Part shown: piece by piece, positions 2,096-57,759 of the stretch
How positions within the stretch are numbered: position 1 is the stretch's first letter
Layout: every line of letters starts with the position of its first letter
Assembly: GCA_025617745.1 (NCBI GenBank)
Contig: CM046864.1
Span: 3,246,616-3,310,615, forward strand
Reading direction: 5' to 3'
Length of the DNA stretch: 64,000 bases
From: Heliocidaris erythrogramma
Lineage: Eukaryota; Echinodermata; Echinoidea; Camarodonta; Echinometridae
Made by a program: the position numbers and the translations under genes
The notes under the pieces: generated by a model
Database searches by the model: none
Seen by the model: only the letters and a program-made list of their open reading frames with translations
Told to the model about the DNA's origin: nothing

Positions 2096-2421
2096 TGGTT
2101 CAGTTCAGTTCAGTTCAGTTCAATTTATTCTTTTTTCTCAATCATAAAAACCAACAATGGCAAAATCATTCAAAGTATAAAATATATATACATGTACATA
2201 TACGATTACAGAGAGAGAAAAAAAAAGGAAACTACAAAAAAAGTTTTGTAAAAAACTTGTAAGGCGTAGCTCCCTATATAAACATGACATAACATAACAA
2301 AGCGAATATATCATACAAAGAAAGCAAAACAAACGGGAAAGCAGACAAAAACATCAGCAAACACCAGCAAACATACGGGGGGGGGGGTAATGGTAAATGT
2401 ACATCATCGTTAGATTAGGGG

Positions 2422-3120: not shown

Positions 3121-3149
3121 GACATTTGTTTTTCCAAAGTTTATTATTT

Positions 3150-4009
3150 ATATTAGTTAGAATATTATCAATAAGAGTTGCTGAATTGGTGGTTATTCGT
3201 GTGGGTTTATCTATTAAGGGACGAAATGAATTATTATATACAATATTAACGAAATCATTTATCTGATTTAACGTGTTACAATGGAGAAAATTTATGTTAA
3301 AATCCCCCATAATATAAACATTTTTATTTTCGCATGAAACCTTCTCCAAACATTCATTTATATTAGCATTGAAATCCTGAATGGACTTATTTGGGTCCCT
3401 ATAAATAATACCAACAATTACATTCTTTTTATTTGAAAACACAATTTCTACAAACAAAAATTCACAAAGATCATTTGACAGACATATATCTGTTCTAACC
3501 ATGAAATTGAATGAATTATGAACAAGCAAGGCAACACCTCCACCTCTTCTATCCTGTCTATCTTTATGACAAAAAGAATATTCATCTATATTAAATAATA
3601 ATGGTGTTTTATCATGTATCCATGTTTCACTAAAACCATAGACAGAGAACTTAAAATCAAGTTGAGTGATAAAATAATTAATGGCATCAAAATTTTTATA
3701 CAAACTTCTAGAGTTAAAGTGGAGTAAACTAAACTTATCTTTACTACCTCTGGAAAGATTGGGATCTTTATTGAATTCCTCATGTAACCAATATCTAGTA
3801 GGATTTGCAAATGTATTATAAAAATTTTCATCTGGGTCTAAATCATCAATTTCATCACACTCATTGTCTTGAAAAGGTTCACTACAAGTAGAATGATTAA
3901 CATGACAACCATTTCTGGATGCATTATATTGCACATCAGGAAAATCTTCATTTACATTACCAAGAAGGGAATCGCAAGAATCGCAAGAATCGCAAGTTGA
4001 CATAATCAT
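3150..4009 (-). pseudogene. LINE-2 endonuclease domain
   Basis: EEP endonuclease with LHFNSRSL, GFSETWIHD, RRGGGVALLV, IYRDPN and MGDFNINF, ending at ATLIDNILTNINN. The start at 4009 is followed by three copies of an Asp-Ser-Cys unit made by a short nucleotide repeat at 3970-3998. The open frame runs to 3110, but only the part above about 3150 is endonuclease. The GISDH box that normally follows is missing because the internal deletion begins just after ILTN. ORF1 lies 345 bp upstream. Confidence 0.85.
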
Positions 4010-4354
4010 TCACAGACTGCAAACAGATAAAATTACACACAAAACACACACACACTTAAACAAAACAGCAACAAAAAAAAAAGGTATGCAAAGTATTAAA
4101 TATAAAATTTACATTGAAAAATAACGTTCCAATCAAAAAAGCAGTAAATGTTCATTGACCTGGATAACATTTGTAAATATAAGAAAAATTAAAATCATTT
4201 GTAGGTGACAGATGATTTGTCAGAAGAAAAGTACATAAATATAATGACACAAACTTGATGCAAATATGCTATGTTTGAAATATAGGAATATAAGGATACA
4301 AATCTGATACAAATATGCATTGCATATTATACATCAAGATCTCTGTGTAAGTCA
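4010..4354. other. LINE-2 inter-ORF spacer
   Basis: AT-rich non-coding sequence with an ACACAC run near 4037-4053 and an A run near 4071-4082. It separates ORF1 from the endonuclease frame. No other feature is seen. Confidence 0.5.
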
Positions 4355-5097
4355 TCAAACCGATAAGAGACCTTCCTTAGAGTGTATCTGTCTTTTCATT
4401 GGTCCTTTGTCGGTTTTGACTGATACGATTATTCTTCCGTTGATCGACCATGCCGACAGGATCTTTGCTTGAGGAAGCTTGCTGGCCTTGACTGCTTCCC
4501 ATAGAAGTGACCGATTTGCATTAGTTAGGTCTTCAAACATACTCATTTTCGTGTTTTTCAATTTCTTTCTGTTTTGTAGCAATCTTTGACGATATTGATA
4601 GGAAGTGAGTTTGATGATTATTGCTCTTGGCTTGATTTCTCCCCCTTCTTTAGGTGCTGGTTCAACGCGACGTGGTACACGATGGCTCCTGTCGATGTCC
4701 TGTAGTTGAAGGTCGACGCCGAGTCGTTTTTGCGCTATTTCGCACACTTTCTCACTTGTGTTTTCATTCAATTCTTCAGGCACTCCAAACAGACGAATAC
4801 AATTTCTCCTTGAATATTGCTCCTGATTATTTAGTTCCTTCTCCAACCATTTGTTTCTCTCCTCAAACATCTGTTGTTTCTTTTGCAAACTTTTTAGATC
4901 ACTTTCAATACTCTTTACTTGGTGATGGAGATCCAGTATTGCTCCATCTTGCTTTTCAAGCCGCTCAATAAGTTGCTGGAATTTGGAATCTAAAGCTTGG
5001 CAAATGGTTTTTTTTTGATGGTAGAAAGCACTTCTTCATCAAGTAATGCTTCCTTAACGAGGTTCTTTGTCATGTTTGTTGATCGTGTTGCAGTCAT
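4355..5097 (-). pseudogene. LINE-2 ORF1, coiled-coil nucleic-acid-binding protein
   Basis: Starts MTATRSTNMTKNLVKEALLD at 5097 (a second ATG at 5073). A run of nine A on the coding strand near 5006-5014 shifts the frame. After it come a coiled coil (FQQLIERLEKQ to KKQQMFEERNKWLEKELNNQ), then NCIRLFGVPEE and IKPRAIIIKLTSYQYRQRLL, the RRM-like and C-terminal layout of L1-type ORF1 proteins, which coat LINE RNA and act as chaperones. It ends at 4355. The main intact stretch is 4355-4888. The A-run frameshift inactivates it unless slippage restores the frame. Confidence 0.7.
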
Positions 5098-15960: not shown

Positions 15961-16477
15961 GAATGGGTTAACTATAACTGATACTGATTTACCATCAAAA
16001 CAGTAGTAGGATAATCACCTAAGTCTTTTAAGTTAAGGGTCTACACCGTCTATGTGTAATAATACTACATAATAACCCTGATAGCAGAAAGTGTTAAAAA
16101 ATGACGTGATATTTACGTCGTGGTTTTCGTCTTTTTTACGTCCTGTAATTACGTCAATGAGACGACAACTTGCACCAACGCAAGACGTCAAGAGGACGTC
16201 TTATTTTGACGTCATCTCTACGTCTTCATTCCTCTTCCCTGATAGCAGAAAGTGTTAAAAATGACGTGATATTTACGTCGTGGTTTTCGTCTTTTTTACG
16301 TCCTGTAATTACGTCAATAAGACGACAACTTGCACCAACGCAAGACGTCAAGAGGACGTCTTATTTTGACGTAATCTCTACGTCTTGTACACTGTAAAAA
16401 CTAAAGTGCTACTTTTAGGGGCATGTATAGTGACTGCACCTGAAATGCTGGTTATAGCACTTGTAGTGTGCTAATTT

Positions 16478-20944: not shown

Positions 20945-21797
20945 TTGTCTAGGAATTCATCTATACAAGATGACTTAAAATCAATAGTTCCAACAAATTC
21001 TGAGGGAAAGATAAGTTTTTCTGACATTACCTGTAAATTTTCCAGATCTTCCGCTAAATCTGGAATAATCATTGCACACCTCAATGTTAGGACTGTATAT
21101 CCAAAACCTACATCAAGTGAAAGTCCTAATAAATGAATATAATTTCGATGTTTTGGGACTAAATGAGACTCGTTCATGTGATACGACTGATGACAAACAA
21201 ATAAGTATTAATGATTATGTGGTATACAGGAAAGATAGAAATAGACAGGGTGGAGGCGTACTTGCATATATAAATGAAAAACGCCTCAAACATGTCTTAA
21301 GACCTGATTTGATGTCAGAAGACACTGAAATGATAGCTGTTGAAGTGAGGCAACCTAACTCTGTTGCAGTAATTATACTGGCTTGGTATCGACCACCTGG
21401 CTCCAGTATGCATTTGTTTGATACTATTGAATACGTTGTATCCAAGTTGGATTATGAATCTAAGGATATCATTCTTATAGGGGACCTAAATTGTGATTTA
21501 TTGGCCTCTCCCCTCAGCTGCTACTCGAAAAGACTATTGAGCTATCAAATTGTTATTCATTAAGTAAAGTAATCGATACACTCACAAGAATTGATCATGT
21601 CACAAACTCTCACTGACGTTATTTTTACTTCCAATATTTTTAAGATAGCAGAGAGTGGCGTTATCCACACAGGGATTAGTGACCATTCGCTTGTTTTTGC
21701 CTTCTTTGGTAAAAGGCGTTCTAATAAAAGTCATCATACGTATAAAGTGTACAGAAACTAAAAGTTTTAGGGACCACGCTCTTCGTAAAGAAGTAGC
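20945..21797 (+). pseudogene. LINE endonuclease domain (plus strand)
   Basis: IIIAHLNVR, then after a frameshift near 21115 VLGLNETRSCDT, RQGGGVLAYI, LAWYRPPGS and IGDLNCDLL. A further frameshift leads to TDVIFTSNIFKIAESG and TGISDHSLVFAFFGKRR. All core EEP motifs (Asn, Glu, Asp-x-Asn, Ser-Asp-His) are visible across three frames. The frame is cut at 21798 by the foldback element. Confidence 0.8.
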
Positions 21798-21799
21798 TA

Positions 21800-22672
21800 A
21801 TGCTAGGAGTCCACTGGGCCGGCGCCAGTTGGTGCCAGTTCGCGCCAAAGATTATGTGATTGGCGCGTAGTGGCTCGCTGTGGCGCCGAATTAATGTCCG
21901 CTCGGCATGTGTCGCCAAGTGGAATAAACTGGGTGCCATATGGCGTGCGCCAAAATGTTGCGCCAGTTTGCGCCATTACACGGCCATTTGATTCCAAAAT
22001 TCACCCTGTTGGCGCCATTCGCGCCAATAGACGGCTACTTTGCGGCACTTGGTGATTAGTTTGTGCCAAAGGTCGCCAAGTTTGAACTTGCCGCCACTTG
22101 GCGCTACTTGCCGACTATATGAAAATCTTGCAAGTTGTGTGAGAAAGTCCTGCGATGCCGCCCTGCTTTTATAGGCGGCAAGTGGCGCTGAATGGCGGGC
22201 AACCAGGTGGCATTTGGCGCGAAGTAGTCACCAATCGGGTGCCGTTTGGCTCGCGCCACTGCGCATTTGGCGCGGGCTATCCGCCTCTGTTGGAATTATT
22301 TGGCGCGTAGTGGCGCAAACAAGGTGCCACTTGGCGCCATGTGGCGCGAAATCTCATTGGCACAACCATTACATTCCAGTGGATTACAATAGGCGGAATG
22401 TTTGCGCCAAAGGGCGATATGTTCGCGCCATTTGGTGCCACTTGGCGGACACTTGGCGCTGATTGCTCGATGCAAGTGGCGCGACGAAGATTTCAAACAT
22501 TTTGAAATTTTCTTGCCGCCAAATTCAAATTTGGTGCCACCACGAGCCAGTTGGGAGGCAGTTTGAGCCACTACACGCCACTAGGCACCTTATTGGCGAC
22601 ACTAGGCGCCACAGCAAATTGCATTGGCGCCAACTGGCACCAATTGGCGCCGGCCCAGTGGACTCCTAGCAT
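21800..22672. mobile_element. GGCGC-rich foldback element
   Basis: Begins ATGCTAGGAGTCCACTGGGC and ends with its inverse, flanked by TA at 21798-21799 and 22673-22674. Terminal inverted arms (CCGGCGCCAGTTGG and CCAATTGGCGCCGG) lead into an interior crowded with TGGCGC and GCGCCA words. At least six exact TTTGGCGC matches occur over both strands. Short open frames inside are artefacts. It splits a LINE frame between the endonuclease and the RT linker. Confidence 0.9.
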
Positions 22673-22673
22673 T

Positions 22674-23270
22674 ATATCAACTACAACCGTGTATACAGTT
22701 CTTCTTGTGTTGATGAGTCTGCAAACGCTTCTCTAAATTCATTTTGGTTATCATGTGATAAATTTGCTCCTCTAAGTAGAAAGAAGATAAAAAGGGACAA
22801 TCTTCCATGGATTGATGCAGATATCTTGAGATTGATTCGTAAAAGAAAAGCAGAGCATTGAAAGATAATAAGGAACAGGATTGGAAAGCATATAAGAAAA
22901 TAAGAAACTATGTAACTGCAAAACTGAAATACAAGAAAATAGTCTTTTTTCAAACGAAAATCGAAACTTCAAAAGGTAACGTAAAAGAAACATGGAAAAA
23001 TCTAAATATGCTATTGAATCGAAAAAAAAATCAAATGAAATATCGTATTTAAAATGTGATGATATTGATATCCATGATCCTACTCTGATTGCCGAAAAAT
23101 TAAATGAATATTTTGTTAATATAGGACCATCATTGGCAGATTCGATTATAGAGCCAACGGACAACTCTCATTTTACGCATTCTTTCCATAATTTCATTTC
23201 ACATTGGTTGATAAAAGTGAAATCTATAGGTATATTATGAATATGCCAAATGATAAGGCTATGGGCTGCG
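22674..23270 (+). pseudogene. LINE linker and start of RT (plus strand)
   Basis: CDKFAPLSRKKI, RDNLPWIDADILRLIRKRK, QDWKAYKKIRNYVTAKLKY, then EKLNEYFVNIGPSLADS and NMPNDKAMGCDML, in several frames. This is the conserved stretch from after the endonuclease to RT motif 0. It stops at about 23270. Confidence 0.7.
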
Positions 23271-23334
23271 ATATGTTGCGGGAGGGGGGAGAGGGCATGT
23301 GGTAAGGGGGACCTGATGTTACAGATCCTTTAAT

Positions 23335-25220
23335 GTATTAAAGACAATCTAGCTTCTTCCTAAAAACACTTAATGAGGTTTCAAATGGGATGTGAGTAAC
23401 CAAAGTATTCGGTAGCATTCCACCTTTGGTTTGACATAAATAATTCACCTGCAATACAGTCTTCAATGCCTTGTTTAGTAAAGTTTGTAATTTCCTACGA
23501 TTAGTTTTAGACGTGTTTCCCCATACTATAGAGCAGTAGTCAAAATGAGACTGAAAGACGGATTTGTAAAATACCAAAGCAGTAGATTTACTTATGACAG
23601 ATCCAGTTCTTTTTAGTAAATAATTATAAACTTTTCACAACTTTTGATTTCACCTGCTCTATCTGCTTGTTCCAATTGAGATTCTCATAAATGTAAATTT
23701 ACAAAAGGTTTACTCTGTTGATGACTACTCCATCAATTGTCATCGTAAGTGTCTTAAGTACGTTATCCCACTTATTTATTCTCTGCTTACTTCCAATTAC
23801 CATTGCTTCAGACTTGTTAATGTTAAGTGCTAATTTATTCGCTTTAACCATAGAGAGATGATATTCAAGTCTTCGTTTACCTTTTTATACATATCAAATG
23901 GGTTTGTTAACGTACAAAACAGGGAAGTATCGTGGCATAGAGGGCAACTTGACTATTTTTTTTTATTTATCAGACAGATCATTTGTATATATGGAAAATT
24001 AAATCAGACTCCTGAGACAGGAAGCTCTATCATTCACTTGATTATACTGTTGCCTATCAACACATAAATAATTCTTAAACCATTTAAGAACTGGTATGTC
24101 AAAGCCAAACAGTTTTAATTTCTTAAACAAGATAGAATGGTCTATACTATCGAATGCTTTCTTCAGATCGATAATTAAAACACCTATTATTTCTCCCTTG
24201 TCAATAGCTGAAATCCATTTGTTAGTCACATTCAAAAGAGCTTCTTGAGTGGAATACTTCGGTCTGAAGCCCGATTGACAGACAGAAAGTATTTGTATAC
24301 CTGGTCATAAACAATTTTCTCCATGACCTTGGCTAAAACAGAGAGAACTGAGATTGGTCTGTAGTTACTTAATACATTTTTATCCCCACTTTTAAAAATT
24401 GGTGTCACTCTAGGACGCTTCCACTGTGTTGGAATATTACCCATATTCAATGAAAGATTAATAATATGTGTTAATGGAGCCGCAAGTATATGAGCAACAC
24501 ATGAAATGCATTTAGCTGGTACTGTGTCAGGGCCAGTTGCTTTATCACCCGACAACGACTGCAGAATCTTTTTTACAGTTGTTTCAGTAACACTTTCAAA
24601 ACAAACTTGGATTCGATTTTGTTGAAATTAGAGAAGGTATATGAATAAACATTCGTAATTTTACTCTGAATTTTTGTACCGATGACTGAAAAAGTCATTG
24701 AAGGCATTCGCCAAGGTTTCTCCATGAAGAAATTCTTCGTCTACAGAGATTCCTGAGATCGGAAGTCAACTTTTCTTGTTAGGAGTATAAATATAAATAT
24801 TTTAAGGAGTTCCAGATTCACTTTGAATTATTTCTATCAAATTCAATATTTTTACTTATAAAATTACGTTTCGCTTGACGGATAAGTGCAGTTACATCAT
24901 TACCCACTTGTTTTTATGTATTCCAATCCGCTTCAGCGCCTGTTTTTCTAGCTTTAACCTTTAAGCGATCTCTAGCACGTCTCCGATCGAAGATTTCTTT
25001 ATTCGTCCATGGAGATTCTCTTTGTATAACTCTCCTTTTTTTCGTATGGGGGGCATGCTTATCAATGGCATTCATTAATGATGAACTAAAATTATCATAA
25101 GCTTCCTGCGGGTCTGCACTCTGATAAACAGAGTCACAGCATACCCTGCTAACATCAAGTTCAAATGCTTCCTTAGAATAGTTCTTATAATTACGATTTA
25201 CTTTGTATTTATATTTAACA
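23335..25220 (-). pseudogene. Minus-strand LINE: linker to RT C-terminus, frameshifted
   Basis: Read from right to left: DKHAPHTKKRRVIQRESPWT (about 25050), GDKATGPDTVPAKCIS and PTQWKRPRVTPIFKSGD with NYRPISVLSVLAKVMEKI (24555-24260), motif A as IDLKKAFDSIDHSIL (about 24165), a motif C site garbled by a small deletion near 23915 (LYATI in place of LYADDT), SKQRINKWDNVL, and the C-terminal YCSIVWGNTSKTNRRKLQTL and VTHIPFETSLSVFRKKL ending at 23338. It lies head-to-head inside a plus-strand LINE. Confidence 0.8.
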
Positions 25221-25224
25221 TGGA

Positions 25225-26203
25225 TTGTTAGTTGAAAAATTATGTCATTATGGTCTTGATGAAGCGTCAATACATTGGTTTAGGACTTATTTGCAAGAAA
25301 GAGGGCAGGCCGCGCGCGTTAGTGGTCATTTATCAGAAGTTCGTCCTATTCTAAGTGGTATCCCCCAAGGGACAATATTGGGCCCCTTACTTTTTATTAT
25401 ATATATTATTCGTAAACGATCTCCCATCCGTCCTGAAATATTGTCAAGTTAGCATGTACGCTGACGATACGATGATGTATTGCTCAGGCAAAAGTCCTAC
25501 TGAAATATGTTGTAAAATTGAAGAAAACCTGTTTATTGTACTCGGTACCAAATAAAGGCTTAGCAAAATTGAAAATAATGTGTTTAACATTCAAACTGAC
25601 AATACTCCATAACAAAAGTTGATGAATGTAAATATTTGGCGTTATTCTTGATTCCAATTTAACATGGCAAATCCATATTAATTATCTACAAAAAAGGTAA
25701 ATGGTGGTTTATTGATGTTAAAGTCTATTAGGAATCTTGTTGATGAACAGGATTTGATTGTTTTTTTAATTCTTTGATTAAGTCACATTTTAACTACTGC
25801 GATGTGTGGGGTAACTGCGGGATAAGTAATCAAAACGTTCTTCAAAAACTACAAAATAAGACTGCCAGAATAATAAATCGTTCCCAAGGGTATTCCTCTG
25901 CCAAAGAAAATTTAAGTAAGTTAAAGTGGGTGACATTGCAAGAAAACAGAACAAAAAATCTTGTTCAAGATAATGACCGGACAAGCACCATTATACCTAA
26001 ATGACCGATTTTCATTCTACAACCATGCATATAATACACGGTCAGGTCCCTTAAGTTTAAATATTCCACAAGCAAAAACCGAATCTGCTAAGAAATCTTT
26101 TATGGTCAGGGGGGCTTCTTGCTGGAACTCACTTCCAATTCAACAACAACAATATAATACTGTTGGCAGCTTCAAAAGGGCATTAGTAAATAACAGGAAA
26201 TGA
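25225..26203 (+). pseudogene. LINE RT motifs B-C and C-terminus (plus strand)
   Basis: LVEKLCHYGLDEASIHWFR, SGIPQGTILGPLLFIIYI (motif B region), frameshift, FVNDLPSVLKYCQVSMYADD (intact YADD motif C), then decayed thumb, SHFNYCDVWGNCG, TARIINRSQGY and the terminal GASCWNSLPIQQQQYNT block. A G run follows at 26204-26217. RT motifs 0-A are missing where the minus-strand LINE sits. Confidence 0.8.
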
Positions 26204-26474
26204 ATGGGGGGGGGGGGAGGATTCGTCTAAATTTTGCAATTTCTGATTTATTTCTTATGTTTTCTGCATTGTTACTTTACTTGATTTTACATTCTGATGT
26301 GCTTGTGTGTGGTATGTAGAGATTTGTATGTGATGATGTGGAATGGGTTGATGAATGTGAAAGTTTACTTGATGAAGATGGGTGTTCGGTCGTGTGTGTA
26401 TGTGAGTGTGTTTGTGTGTGTTTGCGTAGAGTCTGTTCAACTGATAGCATATATGAAGGGACGTGTTTAATTGT

Positions 26475-27472
26475 GTATCTGAGTATTATATATTCTGACC
26501 TTTATATGTATTACCAGTATTTGCATTATCTGTATTTATATATATATTTTAAGGTTAGGACTAGGGTTTAGGCTTAGGATTACGATTAGGTTTTAGGGTA
26601 AGGGTTTAGGATTAGGGTTAAGGGTTAGAGTAGGGTAAAGGATTATGGTTAGGGTTAGGTTAGGGTATGGTGGGCCTATATCACGAGCATGCCCAACATA
26701 CTGTAACGCAATGCCAAGACATAACATGTGGTAACGAGGAGCAACGGGTAGAGAGAGAGAGAGAGAAAGAATATGTGTTTGAAGGAAGAAAAAGAAGATA
26801 GAACCATGTATCTGAGTATTATATATTCTGGCCTTTATATGTATTACCAGTATTTGCATTATCTGTATTTATATATATATTTTAAGGTTAGGACTAGGGT
26901 TTAGGCTTAGGATTACGATTAGGTTTTAGGGTAAGGGTTTAGGATTAGGGTTAAGGGTTAGAGTAGGGTAAAGGATTATGGTTAGGGTTAGGTTAGGGTA
27001 TGGTGGGCCTATATCACGAGCATGCCCAACATACTGTAACGCAATGCCAAGACATAACATGTGGTAACGAGGAGCAACGGGTAGAGAGAGAGAGAGAGAA
27101 AGAATATGTGTTTGAAGGAAGAAAAAGAAGATAGAACCATGTATCTGAGTATTATATATTCTGGCCTTTATATGTATTACCAGTATTTGCATTATCTGTA
27201 TTTATATATATATTTTAAGGTTAGGACTAGGGTTTAGGCTTAGGATTAGGATTAGGTTTTAGGGTAAGGGTTTAGGATTAGGGTTAAGGGTTAGAGTAGG
27301 GTAAAGGATTATGGTTAGGGTTAGGTTTAGGGTATGGTGGGCCTATATCACGAGCATGCCCAACATACTGTAACGCAATGCCAAGACATAACATGTGGTA
27401 ACGAGGAGCAACGGGTAGATAGAGAGAGAGAAAGAATATGTGTTTGAAGGAAGAAAAAGAAGATAGAACCAT
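26475..27472. repeat. Three tandem 333-bp units with telomere-like sequence
   Basis: Units start at 26475, 26808 and 27141 and are almost identical. Each holds a degenerate TTAGGG-like stretch (GGTTAGGACTAGGGTTTAGG to ATTATGGTTAGGGTTAGG), a unique part with CATGCCCAACATACTG, and a GA run. The two identical open frames of 88 codons in units 1 and 2 are by-products of the repeat. Confidence 0.95.
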
Positions 27473-30376: not shown

Positions 30377-31536
30377 TTAGTGGGATATCCACACAGCAAT
30401 CTCTTTAATGATTGCCCATTGTTCCTGAGACTGATACACGACTATTCGAAGACATGCCACCTCCGTGGGGAACTTTTCATGCACATCTACATCAATACAA
30501 CCATTAAAGAATCGTCCGACTTCTTCAAAACTGCTGCATTCAGGCAATACACTTGCGCTTTTAGTAGGAAGCAGCCCCAAACTCAACTCAACCGCAGCTT
30601 CTTTCAATTTGTCTGCAGGATGCTCTTGTGACCCTGTCACGATAGCAAGACGGGATATTACAGTTGGCTTATCAAATATAAGAACTACGACATCGTCTTT
30701 TTGGGGTTTTTTCGCCCAAAAGAAGTGGGATGATTTGTTGTAGCTCAGCTGAGGCAGGTGCTTGCCGTATGCCGTCATGTTGCTGTACACCTTACCTGAT
30801 GGATTATCTGCATCTGGGTACTGGGGCTGGTTAGGATCAAAGGTTTTATCCACCCATTTTGTAGCGTCCTTTCCCTTCAGCGACGACTGGAAGCCCCTGT
30901 GCTGGAAGAGCGAGGGCGCCCTCACGTAATTCTTGTGCTGGGCATTTAAATCTTTGAAATACCTAAAGAGCCAATCGACGGGTTGATCCTGGTAGAAAAT
31001 CAAGGTGAACTGCGCAAGTTTATCCAAATCGTAGGTGTGAAAGAGTTTGCCAATGAAGCCCATAGTAGAGAATTCCAGAGACGCCCATTTGACGTTACTC
31101 TTTTGCTGAATATACAGCCGAATAGCTGTTAGGTACCCCCCTGTAGTAAAAACATCATCCTCGATTTGAAGGTAGTATTCAGAAAGACTCTCGGCATAAA
31201 AGAACATGAAAGCAAAATCTGCACACTGTTTCGAACGCCATCGAACTCTGGTATTTGAATCTCCATAATTAGATTTGAGTTTTTCAAGGGGTGGGTAGAA
31301 GGAAGCCGGGGCCTGGATTACTTGGATAAATCCATTTTCTAGATAGTGTAGGTACTTGTCTTTAATCATTTCCTTTAATATGGACCGCTTTACTTCTTCA
31401 AAATCGGCTAGAAAAATGAGGAGAATGACATCTGAGCGTTCCTTTGGAGATGAATTACTTATTAGTGAATCCAGAGTTTGAGTTAAGTAGTGTTCCGTTT
31501 CCCTCTGAACTGTAGGTATACCTATCGTCAGATGAC
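30377..31536 (-). CDS. MGAT4C: MGAT4C-like exon 4 (catalytic and C-terminal domains)
   Basis: Terminal coding exon, 386 codons including TAA. The acceptor is TTTCTTATCAG directly before GTCATCTGACG. The intron is phase 1, so the first Gly codon is split with exon 3. The open frame extends upstream to an ATG at 31555, but those six codons are the polypyrimidine tract of the intron and are not coding. Exon contents start at residue 114. Confidence 0.92.
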
Positions 31537-34500
31537 CTGATAAGAAACATTGCAAGATGAAGACATTAAAAAAATCAGTACAGCAAATATGGAACAGATG
31601 TTAGTATTTATTTAATATTGTAATTTAAATATACTCTATAAGGGTGTATGCTTATGAAAATTAATATACCTTCCTCATCTTAAGGAATAATGTTTTTGCT
31701 CTCGCATGTAATAGTGTATCAGTAAGCCCCGACAATGATTGATTGAAATGGTTTTATTCATTATCAAACTTTGCAGCCAAACGGCTGAATTATGTCTGAT
31801 TTCCAATGATAAAAATACGATAACGGAAAAAATACACTACACATAGGAAACAGGTAAAGAAACAAAATTCAAAAGATAATGGACATGCACAGTATGAAAA
31901 TTACAATAAAAAGATCAATACAGGTAAATCTAGTAAGAATAGGAAAATTTGGAATGTGTGACATCAAAATAATTAATCAAAACCTGGATTGATATTCTAT
32001 TCGTGAGTGGAGTGCCCTCCGTATGTTCTATAGGAGGGCTTATGTTTAGGGTTATTACTTTTATTACTATTAGTAGTAGTAGTAGTAGTAGAATCATTAT
32101 TATTGTTATCATCATCATTATCATCATCTTTGATATTATTATTATCATTGTTTTTCATTATAGTCTTTGCTATTATTATTATTATCATTATTTTGATGAT
32201 TACTGTTATTATTATTAATATAATTATTTTGACTAATATTATCACCATCACCATCCTCATCATTATCATAATGATAATGATAATAATTTGTTATTTTCCA
32301 AGGTTAGCCATCTCATGTTTTGAATACTGTTCTTCCAGAGGGCTTTCTTTAAAAGAAAATGAATAGCTGCAACTCAATAATCAATAGCCTTAGAGGATGA
32401 GAAAATGTTACTGTATACGAACATCCTATCTATCATGTTTAATGTTAATTTATACGTACACCCTTTCTAGACTCAACACATTAAGCAAGTATAAGGTATA
32501 TAGTCATTTGGTTTCTCATACGTTGCCAAGATATGGAGTAGTTGTATATATAACTTGAAATCATATTGATCATTTTACTTTCGTCTTATTCAAGCTCTGG
32601 TAGGTTATTAACTTAATGCAGTTATCAGACACACTAAAATCGTATTCTGTTTTCGGCAAATTATAAGTTTATTTTAATCCTAAGACATATTCAATCTTCA
32701 CTTATCTGATAAGTTTCGATTTGATCCTAAGACATCTAGACCACTCTTCACTTACCTGATAAGTTTCGATTTGATCCTAAGACATCTAGACCACTCTTCA
32801 CTTATCTGATAAGTTTCGTTTTGATCCTAAGACATCTAGACCACTCTTCACTTATCTGATAAGTTTCGTTTTGATCCTAAGACATCTAGACCACTCTTCA
32901 CTTACCTGATAAGTTTCGTTTTGATCCTAAGACATCTAGACCACTCTTCACTTATCTGATAAGTTTCGTTTTGATCCTAAGACATCTAGACCACTCTTCA
33001 CTTACCTGATAAGTTTCGATTTGATCCTAAGACATCTAGACCACTCTTCACTTATCTGATAAGTTTCGTTTTGATCCTAAGACATCTAGACCACTCTTCA
33101 CTTATCTGATAAGTTTCGATTTGATCCTAAGACATCTAGACCACTCTTCACTTATCTGATAAGTTTCGTTTTGATCCTAAGACATCTAGACCACTCTTCA
33201 CTTACCTGATAAGTTTCGTTTTGATCCTTAGACATCTAGACCACTCTTCACTTACCTGATAAGTTTCGTTTTGATCCTTAGACATCTAGACCACTTTTCA
33301 CTTATGATAATTTTTGTTTTGATCCAAAGACATCTAGACCACTCTTCACTTATCTGATAAGTTTCGTTTTGATCCAAAGACATCTAGACCACTCTTCACT
33401 TACCTGATAAGTTTCGTTTTAATCCTAAGACAAGAGCTTTATCCAACTCTTCCTTACTCGGTTTGGTCCAAAGTTGGGTTGTTTCATGTGGTGAATTCTG
33501 CATCTACGGATACAAAGGGTTGGACGAAAGTCAAAAGTCCATGAATCTATCAAATCCATAACTTTAGGCTGTGTCTATCTCCTCTGCTATTCAGAAAAAA
33601 GTGGCACTTCTGGAATAACTTAATGTTTTAAAAGGAACCTGTGCAATCAATCAACGTGATAATTACTGCCTTTACAATAAGCATATCACAAGACCGCTGT
33701 CCGGAGACAGAAAACGATCTCATTAAGATACTACATAACCATGAATGGATATATATGAATATATACATTAAAAGGATTATCCTGAACTATCACTACAAAA
33801 TAATTTGAGAAGTATCCTGCCTTTCTGCACTGCTTAAATGTTCCGAGCATATTTTGCAATAATATAGTTATCCACATTATTATAAAGAACATCTTATGAG
33901 TATCATTTAACAAAACAGGGTAATGAATAGAATGTATGGCAGAAGGCTATATCACCCGGTATTTCAGAGCTGTTTTCTTTTACCCATCTATTTATATATT
34001 GCATCATCCCTTCTCTTCCGTGAATATAACTCTCATAACTCTTCAGAGTTTGTTGTAATATTTTCTTGCTAGATTCAATTTACTTCCTTAATTGAAACTT
34101 GAAATTCTGATACAAATTAACGCATAATTCGCCTCTTCATACTCAGATCCGAATGCCACGATGCCAATTGTAAGCCTCAGATAGGCGCGTAGTCAGGGGC
34201 GGTGGGGCGGTAGCCTCCAGCCCCTCCCCCCCCCCCCCCCCTTTCCAAGCGCCAACTAAAAATTAAAAAAAAAGCGAGAGCGAAAAAGCGGGTGGAAGTG
34301 ACAGGGGGGAGACTAAAAATGCGCTACAAGCCGTTATCTTTCTCTAAAATTTGGCTATAACGTCAAAGTTTTCGCCCCTCCCTGTACCCATTAGTAAATG
34401 TTTCAATAACTTTATTTTATCAAACGAAACCACAAATCCAAATTTACAATTTAGAAAAAATGTAAGCGAGCAAAAAACCCTTTTTAATGGCAAGGTATAA

Positions 34501-37500
34501 TTTCGTCATAACAATATACAATAAACACCTCAATATATTTCTGCAATTCAAGTTTTAGTTTTGATATCTCTCTCGTCACTATACACACCGATTCAGAGAG
34601 CTAAACATGGAAGTGTTCAGCTAATAGATAAATAATATTTCGGGTTAAGTTCAGGGACGGCCTGTCTGATTAGATAAGACAATGAGTAATTATGCTCTTT
34701 GATGGCCTCCAACAGGTGGCCCGCTATTGTTTTTGTGCATTTTGGAGCAAACCTTGGAGCTAGACACTTTTGTTTGGTGTTAAAAACCTACTATGAACAG
34801 TAAAATGAAATATGGTATGGTTAAGACCCACCAAAGACCCACCAAATTTATTTTGTTCCAAAAGGGCCCAAAAGACCAGCTACTCACTAGAGTCGAAAAC
34901 GGTGCTTTAAATGATTTTTCTCGAGGTAATAAATGTTCAGTAAATGGCTATTTTGATGGGCCGAATCTAACAAGTGATTATAGAGCATTAAACTATAGTG
35001 GCATGACATATTTTCTTTTTAAAGATATTTGAAACTGTGTTCTACCTACATGTATTCATCTAATCAATAAAGATTACATCATTTTGGGGCACCTGAAAGA
35101 ACATGGGATGCCTGAATCTATTCATTACGGCCCTTAAAAAAATTTCAGGCCCATTTTTCATGAATTAATGCAGTGATCTTAAAAAATATTGTGCTTTAAA
35201 CTGGTCTTAGTACAAAGAAGTATGTACAAACTACAATCGTTCGAAATTTCAGCATTTCATGAGAAGTTTTGAGTGCTAAAATAAAAGTTGAAAACATGTT
35301 TTGGCGAATATGACAGGATTTGTAAAACAGTCCCATACGTAGCTTTTTGTGTACTACCACTCCCATAAAGCCTTAAAGATGAGAAAGGGCAATGAATTAT
35401 GTTCATTGGAAGTTGTTTATAGCTTTCCGTTTTAACCCTCGTACACATGGTTTTATTTTGGGAGGGGCGGTCGGATTGACAAGCAGAAGGTGCACCCTTT
35501 GGGTGGGGGGGGGGGGGGTTGGGGGAGGGGTTGGGAGGGGCACCCTTGGGGGTGCGGGAGGGGTTTGGCATCTGTTCAAAATCGAGACAGGGAGACAACC
35601 GATCTATTCTATTCCGTAAAATACTGATGACTTCGTTCTTGGTTAATCCTCTGATGTTGGGCAGAGTTTCTCTCCTCTTTTTCATTATCACTACTGGATT
35701 CACTGGATTCATATTTTAATTAAGGAATAATTTGAACGCTAACATAATGGAATAACAGGGTCGCTATTCATAATCAAAGTAGAGGTTCGCTATTCATAAT
35801 GGAAGAAGAGGGTCGTTATTCATAATGGAAGAAGAGGGTCGCTATTCATAATGGAAGAAGAGGGTCGCTATTCATAATGGAAGAAGAGGGTCGCTATTCA
35901 TAATGGAAGAAGAGGGTCGCTATTCATAATGGAAGAAGAGGGTCGCTATTCATAATGGAAGAAGAGGGTCGCTATTCATAATGGAAGAAGAGGGTCGCTA
36001 TTCATAATGGAAGAAGAGGGTCGCTATTCATAATGGAAGAAGAGGGTCGCTATTCATAATGGAAGAAGAGGTTCGCTATTCATAATGGAAGAAGAGGGTC
36101 GCTATTCATAATGGAAGAAGAGGGTCGCTATTCATAATGGAAGATTCATAATGGAAGAAGAGGGTCGCTATTCATAATGGAAGATTCATAATGGAAGAAG
36201 AGGGTCGCTATTCATAATGGAAGATTCATAATGGAAGAAGAGGGTCGCTATTCATAATGGAAGATTCATAATGGAAGAAGAGGGTCGCTATTCATAATGG
36301 AAGATTCATAATCGGAGGAGAGTGCCGCCTCTGCATGGTAAAAAGGACATGTTTGTATCAGTGCATATTGTTAGGCTGCTCTATGTTTCATCATTTCCTA
36401 CCCGTGGGTTGTCGGTCTACTGAGATTATCCCAGCATATTGTTCTATAATAGGTAATGAGCAGTGACAAAATGTAATAAATGAAAGTGAACTATATTTGA
36501 GAAGTCGCAATGCTTTTGGGGTACAATTCAATTAGACGAGAACTTCTTCAAACTTAGTTACTTTTTATATGTAATTAATGCGATATGTATCTTATGTGAA
36601 TTGTTTTATGACTTTTTCATACATTTCTGTGTTGATACAGTTATGGCAACTGCCGTTTGAATTAACAAGGAACAAGGTCGGTTAAAAAAGTACAATGAAC
36701 TCATGCTTGCGTGGGAGAGGAATATCGAAAGACATATTCCAGTTCCTGGTTCGTTTTTTTTCTACATTGAAATGTTGGATTTTACATTGTTGATATGTGA
36801 CCTCCAAATTCACAATGTAGTTCAGGTATATATCAATAGATGATTCTACAAAGAGAATGTATATTCACTCATAATCACGGTACTGAAGAATTTCCTTTAG
36901 TTAACGACCTTAAACGGGCAATAGAAGATTAATGAAGATATATACTTGGGATTGAGAAGTCGCAATCGTCTCAGTGTCATATGAACCTGCTTTTATAATA
37001 CTTAAGAGACTAAGACTTACTTATGTTAACTGCTGTTTGAGGTAACAAATAAAAACGATGTTTAAAATGTACACCCAAGATATATATGTGTGGGAGGAGT
37101 ACTTTGAAAAAGAAATGTCTGGTTCGCTTGCTTTCAACAATGAAATGTTGAATAGAATAATTTTTTTTATTTCTAATATTAAAAAAATACAATGAAGCCA
37201 TAATCTGTGTGGGAGGGGGAACAAACAAATTCCAGTTTCTGGTACTTTTGTTTTTTTTTAAACATTGAAATGTTGGATTTTGCACTGTTGGTGTAAGATC
37301 TCGAAATTCACGGTATGTCAGGTATATGACTCATAATCAGACGATCCTGGTATTGAATAATGTTCTATTGTTAATGAATGGATTTAATGAAACGTGCAGT
37401 CTATAAATATTCAATAAAGCCTCCATTGACATTGAACATCATCTTTCGCATCGTTCTTGTTTGTTGTAAAATGATACCAGACACGTACTCAGCATGACCT

Positions 37501-55500: not shown

Positions 55501-57759
55501 GTGATGTTTGTTTTGTAAATTCTCCATGAAATTTCAGTCCATTTTCTCCACATTAGTCATTATTTGAGTGGTCGAATTCTTTCTCATTGAGTTTTATGTC
55601 CTTAGCTTTAAAATTGCTCTGGGCCTGTGACAGTGTGAAAGTGTGTTTTTTGCGTGTTTATGTCTGTGCCTGCGTGTCTGTGTGTTTATGTCTGTGTGTG
55701 CCTTTTCATGTGTCTGAATGTATTTCATCACCTTCAGGTAGGGTTGGCCAATTTGAAATGAATTCATTTACATTATTGATTTAAATAGCGATTTAAATCA
55801 ACTTTAAAAAAATCAAGTTTTCGAATAGAAAATAAAGAATAACGTTAAAATTTCAAAACAAAGAAAATGTAAGAATTTATTTATATTGTTTGACTTGCTT
55901 TTTTGTCATTTTTTTATCAGAATTGATATTTTTTTAATTAAAAAATCGCCGACCATGCCTTCAGAACAACGCACACACACGCACACACACACACTCATAT
56001 AGACACACATTTACACGGGTTCGGGCTGACAACAAAAGTCATACCTCTACTAATGTTTGAATTTTTTTCAATTTTGTTTGTCATTAAAAATTAGTTTGTC
56101 CTGGGTTTATGTTCATGTACTTGATCATGTGGCAAAGAATGTCACGAATAATATTATATAACATAAAACAATTCCACTAGTCAACCTTTCATTTTTAAGA
56201 CGGACATATTAAGACTTTAAATTACAAGGGGTATGAATGATTATGCTATTAACTGTATACACGTAGCCTATATAGACCTTTCTTTGTATGAAAATATTCA
56301 TATACATATCGAACATTAAACTCTCTTATGCATTTATTTGTGTATTATGTTTATGATCCCTTCTATGATCTGAAATCAATCCACAATGTCTCAAGTAAGT
56401 CCTTTCGACGCCCCCAATAAATTCAGAATGATTGGCATGATATTTTCATCAAAGTCGCGAAAGGCCGTTCGCGAGTATCTATAAGGAATGCTAGATCACT
56501 GCCATACGCTAGGCCCTTTCCACCCCGACGGGACGGCTCCCGGCACAACAATCTTGGGGTTTCCCATAGAGATATCATGTGCGTCACTGTGTGCAGTATA
56601 TTCATTGGTTTTTCAGTGTTTTCGGTTTTACAGTGTATAGTGCATGCTGCCGTTCTTCTAGCCCCAAGATGTGATCTGAAATGCATGATAACAATGGCGG
56701 GCCACTGAAACATAAAATTTAGGCACTTTGGGCACACGTTATCAAAATCAGTCGGTGCCATCGTTTTTAGCAATAAATTTAACATATGAATCAATGCTGA
56801 AATAAAGTGATCCATTTCCCATGAGGATCCGTCTTTCTGTGTACCTAACTAATGAGAGGGTAGGGACCAAGCATTGCTACAGGAGGGTTATAAAGAGGGT
56901 ATCCACATGCTTAGGAGATACTGGACTCTGTAGTATTGAAAATAGCTTGTTCTAAACACATAAGCAAGTGAGAGCAAACACAGAACATTTTTGATAGGAC
57001 AGAGTTTCTACAGAAACATTTAACATTAAATCAAGCGGCCCATTGGGAAAATTCAGTCTCCAAACTCCCCTGGTTTTCTATGCGCTTTACATAACTTACA
57101 CATTAGCTGATCCTATAACTTGTCACGTATTCTTTGCTTACATTTTATATAGATAATACTACAGATATGCAGTAAATATAAGTCAGCAGCGACGAGTGTT
57201 CAATGATTAAAAGGACTTTATGCTTTCCAGTATTTAGCATGTTCTTACCTTATCAGTTGGGTTTTTCTCAGAAAGGCTTTTATTTTGATCATGGTCGCCA
57301 GATAGATCATTTCGTAGGCGATGGGTCATGTTAATGTTGTTGTCTCTTTTACCTTCGAGTCTGACCTGGTTAACACACTCCTTGTTCTTCGTCTTGTAAT
57401 CTAATCAGGAAAATGGACAAAAATATCAATGATTGTTTTGTTGTTATCATTCGTGAAGTTTTACACATAGACGGGAAAAGTTTTATAAAATTATATATCA
57501 AGATATATGAATATAGTGAATTTAACAATAGCTTACGAAAGGTTCATAGAAATACACTCTGTAGCAACGAAAAGCATTAACAAGAATCTATAAAAAGAAT
57601 TGTCCTAATAGCTTACAAAAATAACACATGTTATTTTCCTTGTTGCCTGCTAATTATAATATTCCACTTACCTGGTAATTGGAAATTTAAAGCAAGTTTC
57701 CAGCCGATTACACCCATGATGAAAAACATGAGTTGATAGATTGGCTTAATACGTCTCAT
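30377..57759 (-). CDS. MGAT4C: MGAT4C-like glycosyltransferase (GnT-IV family, GT54), four coding exons
   Basis: Predicted Golgi type II membrane enzyme that adds beta-1,4-linked GlcNAc to the alpha-1,3-mannose arm of N-glycans (family knowledge; activity of C-type members is less certain). Coding exons join 57759-57672, 57400-57249, 33503-33404 and 31536-30377. They sum to 1,500 nt, 499 aa plus stop, in frame at every junction; family members are usually about 480-535 aa. Layout: basic cytosolic tail 1-6, membrane anchor about 8-24, stem about 25-113 with an N-glycosylation site at Asn53, GT54 catalytic domain from LTIGIPTVQR (116-125) with LQIEDDV (acidic metal-binding motif, 236-242), SLEFSTMGFIGKLF (266-279) and PSLFQHRGFQSSLKGK (321-336), then the C-terminal domain about 385-499. 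Introns are 271 bp, 23,745 bp and 1,867 bp. The exon 3 donor region is amplified into a minisatellite. No disabling change seen. Confidence 0.88.
31560..31745. other. Intron 3, plain sequence
   Basis: AT-rich intron sequence next to exon 4 with no repeat recognised. Confidence 0.5.
31750..32345 (-). repeat. Intronic repeat with ATT/ATC microsatellite and SINE 3' end
   Basis: 32286-32345 matches the 3' part of the SINE at 43217-43462 (TAGCCATCTCA and ACTGTTCTTCCAGAGGGC against TAGCCACTTCA and ACTGTTCTTCCAGCGGGC). 32050-32285 is an imperfect TTA/TCA trinucleotide tract giving spurious low-complexity frames. 31750-32000 resembles a LINE or SINE 3' UTR but I cannot place it. Confidence 0.55.
32665..33447. 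repeat. 50-bp minisatellite built on the exon 3 / intron 3 junction
   Basis: Fifteen donor-bearing units at 50-bp spacing (starts 32701, 32751 and so on to 33251, 33301, 33349, 33399) plus a diverged half unit at 32665. On the gene's strand each unit equals the last 28 nt of exon 3 followed by the first 22 nt of intron 3. The unit at 33398-33431 is the true junction. CAG|GTAAG is intact at 32751, 32901, 33001, 33201, 33251 and 33399. Eight other units read CAG|ATAAG, and the 33301 unit has lost two bases at the site. Confidence 0.95.
33404..33503 (-). CDS. MGAT4C: MGAT4C-like exon 3 (stem)
   Basis: 100 nt, phase 0 in and phase 1 out, as needed between exons 2 and 4. The acceptor follows a strong polypyrimidine tract (CCCTTTGTATCCGTAG) and the donor is CAG|GTAAGT at 33403. 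It encodes residues 81-113, from MQNSPHETTQLWTKPS to LGLKRNLS, and the first base of Gly114. The basic KRNLSG leads into the catalytic domain. Its 3' end is the seed of the adjacent minisatellite. Confidence 0.82.
33510..34190. other. Intron 2 near exon 3, no feature recognised
   Basis: AT-rich intron sequence without a recognisable repeat or exon. Confidence 0.45.
34195..34320. repeat. C-rich dispersed element fragment
   Basis: GGCGCGTAGTCAGGGGCGG followed by a C run of about 18 at 34216-34241. Similar in style to the CAGTGGCG elements at 42081 and 52122; the family is uncertain. Confidence 0.35.
35498..35567 (+). other. G-rich tract with quadruplex potential
   Basis: About sixteen G, then TT-separated runs GGGGGAGGGG, GGGAGGGG and later GGGGG and GGGAGGGG. 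Four or more G runs lie close together on the strand opposite to the gene's sense strand. Confidence 0.6.
35757..36312. repeat. Minisatellite changing from 26-bp to 40-bp units
   Basis: About fourteen units of AGGGTCGCTATTCATAATGG plus AAGAAG (26 bp), then five units of 40 bp (starts 36121, 36161, 36201, 36241, 36281) in which ATTCATAATGGAAG is repeated inside the unit. It lies in intron 2. Confidence 0.95.
36620..37395. repeat. Diverged tandem duplication
   Basis: ACATTGAAATGTTGGATTTT, GTGGGAG and CTCATAATCA blocks recur in similar order at about 36620-36900 and 37040-37370. A faint relative is near 40218-40270. Non-coding. Confidence 0.45.
37400..38600. other. Intron 2, no gene
   Basis: Contains an AC run near 37711, C-rich bits at 38178-38200 and a G run at 38330-38346. 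Nothing else recognised. Confidence 0.4.
38607..40095. repeat. Dispersed repeat D, copy 1
   Basis: Blocks at 38607-38800, 39045-39330, 39340-39620, 39695-39800 and 39900-40095 each have a counterpart at 42955-45255. Includes AATGGCGCCTAGATGACGTC with a CRE-like TGACGTCA, and CACGCACCAGAGGTACGCGT. Confidence 0.75.
40449..40732. mobile_element. Foldback element F, complementary arms
   Basis: The left arm 40449-40545 and right arm 40620-40732 are nearly perfect inverted copies (ACTATGAACA at the left, TGTTCATAGT at the right; GGTAGACAAAAGAACATCCC against its complement). A short inner inverted pair AGAACAGGTG/CACCTGTTCT lies in the centre. A third, T-to-C-shifted copy is at 59853-60085. Confidence 0.9.
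41247..42015 (-). pseudogene. LINE 3' end: RT C-terminus, 3' UTR and tail
   Basis: KTVSFYCPKYWNSLSSDIVN and FKSMLKKHLLQ at 42010-41860 are the terminal block of Jockey/CR1-type RTs. The 3' UTR follows to the left and ends in an AATAAAATCTGAATCTGAAT tail at 41250-41270. GA-rich simple sequence lies at 41750-41835. The copy is strongly 5'-truncated. Confidence 0.7.
42078..42235. mobile_element. CAGTGGCGGAT element, copy 1
   Basis: CAGTGGCGGATTTAGGGGGG, CCGGCCGTGCC, a C run, then T-rich and C-rich parts. Shares its start with 52122-52250. Confidence 0.55.
42747..42963. mobile_element. AATAGACC MITE, copy C
   Basis: Inverted ends (AATTGACCGCTTCTGTAATG and CATTACCGAAGTGGTC). The interior CTTTCAGGTTGTCAAGAACA is shared with copies D and E. 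Contains ATTTGCAT. Confidence 0.8.
43085..43215 (+). repeat. SINE-like fragment
   Basis: GATTCAGCGGACCCAGGTTCGAGACTGAG has a Pol III B-box-like GGTTCGAGACT, followed by GTGACGTTAAAGGTCGGTCC. The A box is not clear. Confidence 0.4.
43217..43462 (-). repeat. tRNA-derived SINE, family B
   Basis: Head at the right: GGGCATGTTGGCTCAGTTGA (A box) and GGTCGTGGGTTTCAAGCCC (B box). Body with CTTCTGCTTTCTAGCCAGAC, 3' part with GGAAGAACAGTTTGATAATT and GGGTAAAATAAAAC, TTATT tail. Confidence 0.85.
43598..43829. mobile_element. AATAGACC MITE, copy D
   Basis: Near-identical interior to copy C (GGAATCCAGTTTGCATACAT). Right end CCGGAGCGGTCTATT; the left end is altered. Confidence 0.75.
45298..45718 (+). pseudogene. 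Gypsy protease tail and linker
   Basis: STPYFEGNVDNPLYDLVIGN and IAGVR resemble the C-terminal part of Gypsy-type retropepsins. The rest (SEERQQAPSASVGTEQ, DVDQQDNQDDNVNQSEW) is acidic, low-complexity linker. The catalytic Asp part of the protease is not present upstream. Confidence 0.55.
46020..46790 (+). pseudogene. Gypsy integrase: zinc-binding region and catalytic core
   Basis: LAYDYALSGHLKTNKTTDRI with YCASCDACQ is the HHCC region, but the first His appears as Tyr. The core has VAVDLIAP (first Asp), ILSDNGTQF (second Asp) and GACERFHG (Glu) with D-35-E spacing. The core is interrupted by a 106-bp insertion at 46325-46430. A stop follows HGTLK at 46674. Past it, frames with LLFAYREVPHESLGYSPFEL and MYGRT run to 46787, where a 2.5-kb insertion begins. 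Confidence 0.85.
46325..46430. mobile_element. 106-bp hAT-like MITE with 8-bp target duplication
   Basis: Starts CAGTGGCGTAG and ends CTACGCCCATG, flanked on both sides by ACTATAGT (46317-46324 and 46431-46438). Inside, ATTGTTAGTGGGGGG and a C run with ACTAACAAT form a second inverted repeat. It interrupts the integrase core exactly after the codons for ILTIV. Confidence 0.9.
46788..49318. mobile_element. Insertion of unrecognised type inside the Gypsy integrase
   Basis: The integrase frame stops at MYGRTV near 46787 and resumes at RGPMTILKEL near 49320. The 2.5 kb between is AT-rich with a GT/GA run at 46950-46990 and no recognisable gene. A hairpin-forming 107-bp piece lies at 48636-48742. 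No clear terminal repeats or target duplication. Confidence 0.55.
48636..48742. repeat. Stem-loop / mini foldback
   Basis: GATCCCCCAGGAGTACTG and GGAATGGGG are answered by CCCCATTCC and CAGTACAATTGGGGGATC. About 40-bp imperfect arms. Confidence 0.65.
49319..49690 (+). pseudogene. Gypsy integrase C-terminal domain
   Basis: RGPMTILKELWTTEVPEEEV, YVIDLQERLESTCELPRRN, a frameshift at about 49453, then MKYKKHFDVKAKERRFECGD and RVLMLLPTNNNKLLMQWKGP with YHANLLKRYVERR. The GDRVLxLLP to WKGPYKIV stretch is the SH3-like C-terminal domain of Gypsy integrases. Confidence 0.85.
49704..50545 (+). pseudogene. Gypsy reverse transcriptase
   Basis: DEDNRMDGSARMLFP region, then FEDVLTDVPWKTDIITHSVK, a stop, HIRSRPYPVPQALRETIKEE, GILKKSTSPYASPVVIVKKK, NRFCVDYKRINAIT, FFTKIDLSKGYWQIPVAEED (motif A Asp), a frame break at QYQ, DDILIYSSSWDEHLDDVRRV (motif C; the usual Tyr-Ile-Asp-Asp context is disturbed) and SVEFLGHIVR. 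Several frameshifts and stops. Confidence 0.9.
50962..51186. mobile_element. AATAGACC MITE, copy E
   Basis: Most complete copy: AATAGACCACTTCTGCATAA at the left and CATTACCGAAGTGGTCTTATT-type end at the right, with AAATTTGCATACATTACC just inside. Confidence 0.85.
51190..51275 (+). repeat. SINE 3' end
   Basis: AAGCGCCTTATTTTCAAGAT, GGCGCTCTATAAGTCAC and an ATT tail. Resembles the 3' end of SINE family A. Confidence 0.6.
51290..52118. other. Intron 2, no gene
   Basis: No recognisable feature beyond short imperfect repeats of GATCCTGT-type words near 51700-51770. Confidence 0.4.
52122..52275. mobile_element. CAGTGGCGGAT-type element, copy 2
   Basis: ATTGGCGGATCCGGGGGG, CAGCCGGCCCGTGCCCC, then GTGCCCCCCCTTTTAGA and a T run. 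Related to 42078-42235. Confidence 0.55.
53529..53850. repeat. Degenerate tandem repeat, about 70-bp units
   Basis: Four to five units, each with GTTGAAGTATACAGCCATTG and a GATTTGCTGG or similar part, starting near 53529, 53595, 53673, 53740 and 53812. Confidence 0.75.
53893..54032. repeat. Direct repeat G, copy 1
   Basis: GAGCGAGTACCACTTGCTCC to AGAAGAGATAGAAAG. The second copy is at 55062-55196, same orientation, about 90 percent alike by eye. Confidence 0.8.
55062..55196. repeat. Direct repeat G, copy 2
   Basis: Second copy of 53893-54032. The roughly 1 kb between the copies is AT-rich and featureless to me. Confidence 0.8.
56423..56815 (-). other. Open frame of unknown standing
   Basis: 130 codons with an NVCPKC and HFRSHL pair that only loosely resembles a C2H2 finger. 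No family recognised, no obvious splice context, and it lies in intron 2 on the gene's strand. Probably chance. Confidence 0.12.
57249..57400 (-). CDS. MGAT4C: MGAT4C-like exon 2 (stem)
   Basis: 152 nt, phase 1 in and phase 0 out. Acceptor TTTTCCTGATTAG before ATTACAAG, donor AAG|GTAAGA. Residues 30-80: lysine-rich start (YKTKNKECVNQ), an N-glycosylation sequon NMT at 53-55, and hydrophilic SEKNPTDK at the end. Low conservation is usual for stems, so support comes from open frame, splice sites and matching phases. Confidence 0.8.
57672..57759 (-). CDS. MGAT4C: MGAT4C-like exon 1 (signal anchor)
   Basis: 88 nt from ATG at 57759 to donor CCAG|GTAAGT. Encodes MRRIKPIYQLMFFIMGVIGW and KLALNFQLP: a short basic tail and a hydrophobic segment, the standard Golgi type II anchor. 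Intron 1 is only 271 bp. No in-frame upstream ATG is needed. Confidence 0.82.

Follow-up and report, generated by a model that had tools for sequence, protein, structure and literature searches.

A sea-urchin MGAT4C-like gene with a 50-bp minisatellite copied from its splice junction: a probable tolerated passenger

What becomes of an exon when its splice donor is copied again and again, almost unchanged, just inside the following intron? This question is raised by a 50-bp minisatellite in 64,000 nt of DNA from the sea urchin Heliocidaris erythrogramma (contig CM046864.1, C12:3246616-3310615; assembly of 1.06 Gb in 26 contigs). This whole stretch is called the window, and coordinates are positions within it unless a contig is named. 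The repeat unit joins the end of exon 3 to the start of intron 3 of an MGAT4C-like gene on the minus strand, and several units keep a donor as strong as the real one. In our view the array is most likely a passenger that the gene tolerates, leaking at a low level at most into truncated transcripts, and we give this reading a probability of about 0.77.

The junction array and its host gene

Tandem Repeats Finder (TRF) placed a tandem array at 32663-33432, with a period of 50, 15.5 copies and 94% matches. When the minus strand was cut into units at a fixed anchor, there were 15 in-phase junction copies, six with CAG/GTAAGT, eight with CAG/ATAAGT and one minus two bases, and these counts are identical to those of the first-pass annotation. 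A decayed 16th copy, which has no donor, terminates the array. The first intronic bases of the intact GT copies are 33403, 33255, 33205, 33005, 32905 and 32755. The 9-mer CAGGTAAGT occurred seven times in the window against 0.30 expected, a number reached in 0 of 100 shuffles; six of these are in the array, and the remaining one is the donor of exon 1 in this gene. No Rfam match reached the gathering threshold. The array and its donors are as follows.

32663-33432, minus strand: 50-bp minisatellite, 15 exon 3/intron 3 junction copies and a decayed 16th at the far end (TRF, unit alignment)
33398-33406, minus strand: true exon 3 donor CAG/GTAAGT, first intronic base 33403 (homology, phase)
33250-33258, minus strand: intact decoy donor, +148 nt
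33200-33208, minus strand: intact decoy donor, +198 nt
33000-33008, minus strand: intact decoy donor, +398 nt
32900-32908, minus strand: intact decoy donor, +498 nt
32750-32758, minus strand: intact decoy donor, +648 nt

The host gene has four exons (57759-57672, 57400-57249, 33503-33404 and 31536-30377), which join in phase into an open 499-aa frame; from their coordinates, intron 2 is 23,745 nt and intron 3 is 1,867 nt. A second copy of the gene, gene B, is described below.

57672-57759, minus strand: coding exon 1, with start codon and putative hydrophobic anchor; donor CAG/GTAAGTGG (in-phase junction, open frame, copy in gene B)
57249-57400, minus strand: coding exon 2; donor AAG/GTAAGAAC (phases fit exons 1 and 3; copy in gene B)
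33404-33503, minus strand: coding exon 3, of 100 nt with a 6-nt uncertainty in its start; the repeat unit begins with its final 29 nt (homologues align through into exon 4)
30377-31536, minus strand: coding exon 4, with the MGAT4 conserved region and the MGAT4 C-terminal domain; the stop codon ends at 30377 (Pfam)

Both Pfam matches in exon 4 were above the cut-offs (PF04666, 6.2e-73; PF23524, 1.8e-23). The five best homologues are sea-urchin proteins named MGAT4C or MGAT4C-like, with 57-69% identity, including those of Lytechinus pictus (69%), a Strongylocentrotus (62%) and Diadema setosum (57%), and the top homologue is named alpha-1,6-mannosyl 4-beta-GlcNAc-transferase-like protein. Exons 1 and 2 were located upstream by weak protein matches together with phase. 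Exon 1 reads MRRIKPIYQLMFFIMGVIGWKLALNFQLP, which is hydrophobic and weakly matches the L. pictus N-terminus (41% over 22 residues, E 0.17), and exon 2 weakly matches one homologue (P0004, E 0.91).

The boundary that the array copies is fixed by homology. The exon 3/exon 4 junction was gap-free (LVLGLKRNLSG-HLTIGIPTV) in the aligned homologues with matching upstream sequence (12 aligned); P0011 has two additional residues and a differing upstream sequence at this junction, and P0009 starts there. These alignments back the end of exon 3 at 33404 against the challenge that the exon might end elsewhere. Together with phase, they bear out the first-pass proposal that the unit derives from a genuine splice junction of this gene; on this basis, the first copy of the array is the real exon 3/intron 3 boundary of a four-exon MGAT4C-like gene. 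The proposed make-up of the unit, exon end joined to intron start, also stood, and its split of 28 + 22 nt gave way to 29 exonic and 21 intronic nt, the longest stretch common to the array units.

A second array and an array-free paralogue

The 1.06-Gb genome was searched with the exon and unit sequence, using a tool that skips very common words. All 23 matches belonged to the two gene copies and their units, apart from a single distant sequence resembling exon 3. Gene B and its array lie approximately 46.5 kb away on the same 51-Mb contig. Gene B has all four exons and an open 499-aa frame with 8 residue differences (nonsynonymous divergence dN 0.007, synonymous divergence dS 0.016), and its array has 9 junction copies and the same decayed edge. 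Of its eight intronic junction units, four keep GT (one as GTAAGC), compared with 5 of 14 in the window gene. The two arrays correspond in units 1 and 2 and at the edge but differ in their interior units, a difference that reads as normal minisatellite turnover. With 15 versus 9 junction copies between the two gene copies, whether paralogues or haplotypes, the copy number of the array appears to change.

The two gene copies sit in adjacent collinear blocks with roughly 91-99% identity and large indels, and they may be tandem paralogues or uncollapsed haplotypes. The latter possibility would suit an assembly artefact, in which the array or the second gene copy came from collapsed or duplicated contigs. 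We consider this very improbable, as the two arrays differ in copy number and interior and share the same edges and nearly the same exon on one 51-Mb contig, and the paralogue and haplotype readings alike leave two separately assembled arrays. A one-off error of assembly therefore does not account for the array.

The same searches bear on whether the array, instead of being copied from the boundary, belongs to a dispersed satellite or transposon and lies at the boundary by chance. Its 9-mers do occur in other tandem arrays (CAGATAAGT on C2, C3 and C21), and paired CAGGTAAGT sites occur on C4 and C8. However, the unit includes coding sequence common to homologues, and the exon and unit search, with common words skipped, gave no copies away from MGAT4C-like exon 3; we rejected this explanation as scarcely credible. 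Across the genome, pairs of CAGGTAAGT at a 30-60 nt gap were found in 20 places, versus 17 for a reversed-pattern control. Triplets of CAGRTAAGT were found in 74 places versus 11 for the control, and 14 of them belong to the two arrays. Among the other 60, the 51 with letters show CAGATAAGT only (the strings end before the third copy), and 9 came without letters. A genome-wide excess of donor arrays was not shown. Clusters of paired perfect CAGGTAAGT were also seen at G000 C8:5633528-5634673 and C4:37781374-37783310.

The protein search gave 34 matches: the two genes, a further gene (paralogue C), fragments at C12:30-32 Mb and one weak match on C15. Exon 4 of paralogue C is open and 65% identical, and among the proteins fetched it is closest to Strongylocentrotus MGAT4C (78%). 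Its exon 3 and intron 3 lie at the same place and phase, and TRF found no array at its exon 3 donor. Most simply, the array would have arisen after the split from paralogue C, with loss in paralogue C as the alternative. An alternative exon 3 acceptor of the window gene, ATGCAG/AATTC at 33497, lies 6 nt further in and in frame, and corresponds to TTGCAG/AACTC in paralogue C; the donor is unaffected. The fragments at G000 C12:30.0-32.2 Mb form an MGAT4C-like cluster in which many carry stops and several score equally, as if recently duplicated.

The donor and acceptor of intron 3 share CTTATCAGGT. Gain of the intron by AGGT tandem duplication was considered and ruled out, because paralogue C has the intron at the same place and phase; the acceptor motif CTATCAGGT is also present in the degraded MGAT4C-like fragments that were read. 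At one codon, the interior units encode Ser (TCA), like several homologues (others have Tyr), and both exon copies encode Leu (TTA). The decayed edge units also have T at the base that makes Leu, so this codon does not fix the order of events.

Donor strength and the choice of donor

Donors were scored by pairing with the U1 5' end and with splice-site matrices. The true donor and the intact decoys pair with the U1 5' end at -13.0 kcal/mol, the AT units at -6.3 and the unit with the two-base loss at -3.3. Of the gene's 1468 GT sites, 7 reached the maximum matrix score, namely the real donors of exons 1 and 3 together with the five decoys. Among the 111 GT sites of intron 3, the next best scored 6.18 versus 12.81 for the decoys. 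Six copies are full-strength donor sequences, as first claimed. Because the decoys differ from the true junction by at most a few bases over the 50-nt unit, little but position separates them from the true donor. A strong cryptic donor, CAGGTAAGG, was also seen within coding exon 4 at 30790-30798 (matrix score 11.65, above the real intron 2 donor at 11.13).

Use of a decoy would add 148, 198, 398, 498 or 648 nt, as computed from the sequence, instead of the multiples of 50 nt that had been supposed, because one unit has lost 2 nt. The immediate stop predicted for downstream copies was found in all five extensions. Each reads ...S-G-K-stop and halts after 115 residues, 140-640 nt upstream of the next junction.

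In the history that we favour, a tandem duplication probably took in the exon 3/intron 3 boundary, from which unequal exchange and copying inside the array would have built the 50-bp minisatellite. The first unit would remain the working splice site, and the extra units would lie in intron 3 as latent donors. Because the flanking introns are long, exon definition is expected: exon 3 would be delimited by its own acceptor and the closest strong donor, and the first unit would win on position, not on sequence. The copies could then be tolerated, and changes such as G-to-A could be carried along by drift as the units spread. Later units would end exon 3 in a few per cent of transcripts at most; such transcripts would stop after S-G-K, lose all that exon 4 encodes and be expected to undergo nonsense-mediated decay (NMD). 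We expect nearly all splicing to go through 33403, with a small leak. The frame of 499 codons is open in both gene copies despite 5 and 4 GT decoys, so the array does not destroy the gene.

Studies have shown a comparable preference in human cells. Minigenes in which two equal CAG/guaagu donors lay 52 nt from each other, between flanking introns of 365 nt, were spliced only at the upstream one, and human events of near-equal strength under exon definition preferred the upstream donor (PMC9225289). For the human ABCA7 array, one-unit retention was reported in 2 +/- 1% of transcripts, independent of array length, and an increase of transcripts with a premature termination codon when decay was blocked (PMC5954066).

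Several points weigh against a passenger. The decoys share nearly all of their local context with the true donor and are among the best-scoring GT sites of the gene. The minigene test was done in human cells, not in sea urchin, and when strength is not matched, downstream 5' sites were preferred in approximately 60% of human events (PMC9225289). Skipping of the next exon in ABCA7 was 3.2-fold higher for the largest than for the smallest arrays (PMC5954066), which means that the length of an array can influence splicing by other routes. Downstream units are in use in IFI6 (PMC4526556), and the 31-bp variable number of tandem repeats (VNTR) of CBS is tied by title to reduced activity (Lievers 2001, cited in PMC2630376).

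The CBS association is one of the points for an active role, in which the array is a bank of decoy donors. The later units would be rivals of the true donor for U1 and the splicing machinery, would channel part of the transcripts into truncated forms that decay, and would thereby set the output of the gene, with the copy number and the G-to-A variant tuning the strength. The GT decoys equal the true donor and each truncates, and the unit nearest the exon is AT in both gene copies. On the other hand, the upstream donor was exclusive in the exon-definition minigenes, the one-unit form of ABCA7 is rare whatever the array length, 9 of 22 intronic units retain GT without a clear purge, and the AT pattern of the nearest unit is one inherited event common to both arrays. 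We consider such a bank unlikely. The first-pass suggestion that the array lowers or tunes expression finds no support in the matched human-cell minigenes, in which only the upstream donor was used (PMC9225289).

The G-to-A variant had been thought to spread because it silences decoys. Across both genes, the 22 intronic junction units comprise 12 AT, 9 GT and 1 lost site, and those of gene B are divided into 4 AT and 4 GT. G-to-A is the most frequent variant across the 50 unit columns, and the chance that the top variant falls at the GT is approximately 2 in 50, a hint from a single column judged after the fact. AT and GT share unit backgrounds, each being found with and without an A-to-T variant at column 16, so units must have undergone recombination or repeated change. 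In both genes AT stands in the first unit past the true donor, which counts as one inherited unit. Ordinary neutral homogenisation explains this pattern, and weak selection might act beside it. Given the retained GT units, the even split in gene B and the shared backgrounds, spread by silencing is not supported.

Intronic U1 binding can aid exons or suppress early polyadenylation. The row of units might accordingly act as a helpful platform for U1, which strengthens recognition of exon 3 or shields intron 3 from premature polyadenylation. Of the 15 junction units, 14 match the U1 9-mer, 6 perfectly and 8 with one mismatch, and AATAAA lies in the decayed edge copy (32673) and at three further places in intron 3. 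Nevertheless, the true donor is already a perfect consensus, strong U1 pairing is gone in more than half of the units, and paralogue C does without an array; we regard a platform as quite improbable. Less probable still is the splicing of intact units as in-frame 21-nt micro-exons (such as GATCAAAACGAAACTTATCAG) between AG and GTAAGT. Each would add 7 stem residues (such as GSKRNLS, which contains another N-L-S glycosylation sequon) without a stop codon, and the array would be a bank of optional stem-length cassettes instead of decoys. Five window units have this layout, two of them with a TCTAAG acceptor, but by matrix score the unit acceptors rank 170 at best among 1428 AG sites, versus 20, 50 and 91 for the three real ones.

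Other repeats and elements were seen nearby. Intron 2 contains a minisatellite at 35743-36312, 2.2 kb before exon 3, with a 26-bp unit (15.5 copies) followed by a 40-bp unit (26+14, 5.2 copies; 100% matches), and gene B has a shorter version (L010 3072-3424). Intron 3 of gene B has a 37-bp tandem array of 10.8 copies (L010 1-400), and TRF found none such in intron 3 of the window gene. Three copies of a 333-bp unit rich in TTAGGG-like motifs lie at 26474-27472 (99% matches), and a near-perfect, ACGTC-rich 160-bp tandem pair lies at 16076-16386, with a similar pair at L010 6792-7102. Open frames at 467-5035 and 21069-25279 resemble, by eye, fragments of LINE-type retroelements (endonuclease-like and reverse-transcriptase-like).

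Comparison with known splice-donor minisatellites

A limited search of the literature on sea-urchin intron minisatellites gave no title on this gene, and we claim no echinoderm priority. By anatomy, the sea-urchin array belongs with those of human IFI6, CBS and ABCA7, the minisatellites that span a splice donor. It has tandem units of minisatellite size, includes the real donor of an exon and carries further donor-grade units.

One of these is the CBS VNTR, a 31-bp repeat (c.1444_1467+7) at the exon 13/intron 13 boundary with 24 exonic and 7 intronic nt and 16-21 copies (PMC2630376; PMC1395315), in which exon end is joined to intron start as in the sea urchin. For CBS, population copy-number data exist, along with the association with reduced activity named above. 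The ABCA7 intron 18 VNTR likewise starts at and includes the donor of its exon, exon 18, and retention of one unit through the next donor yields a frameshifted, NMD-sensitive transcript (PMC5954066). Its unit is C-rich and 25 bp long, with GT as the first two bases, whereas the sea-urchin unit measures 50 bp, 29 nt of them exonic, and more than half of the intronic units here are donor-dead. Next-donor use and length-dependent skipping of exon 19 have been measured for ABCA7; the sea-urchin array is known from its sequence. The IFI6 (6-16/G1P3) minisatellite also spans the splice donor (Turri 1995, by title; PMC4526556). Two of its downstream units serve as donors, and its three mRNA species encode isoforms, whereas each extension of the sea-urchin array truncates. 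A comparable setting is found in human segmental duplications, where boundary minisatellites alter gene structure among recent paralogues (PMC2812944); the emphasis there is on new introns and exon growth, and the sea-urchin exon boundary is unchanged.

Two near-identical genes with 15 and 9 junction copies and 5 and 4 extra GT donors, together with the array-free paralogue C as an outgroup, provide a natural test, outside vertebrates, of donor choice among identical sites by position alone. The array probably has little effect on its own gene, and the locus suggests that perfect decoy donors are tolerable to a genome where exon definition operates between long introns. The splice-donor minisatellite is a kind already known from human genes, to which the sea-urchin MGAT4C-like case is newly added.
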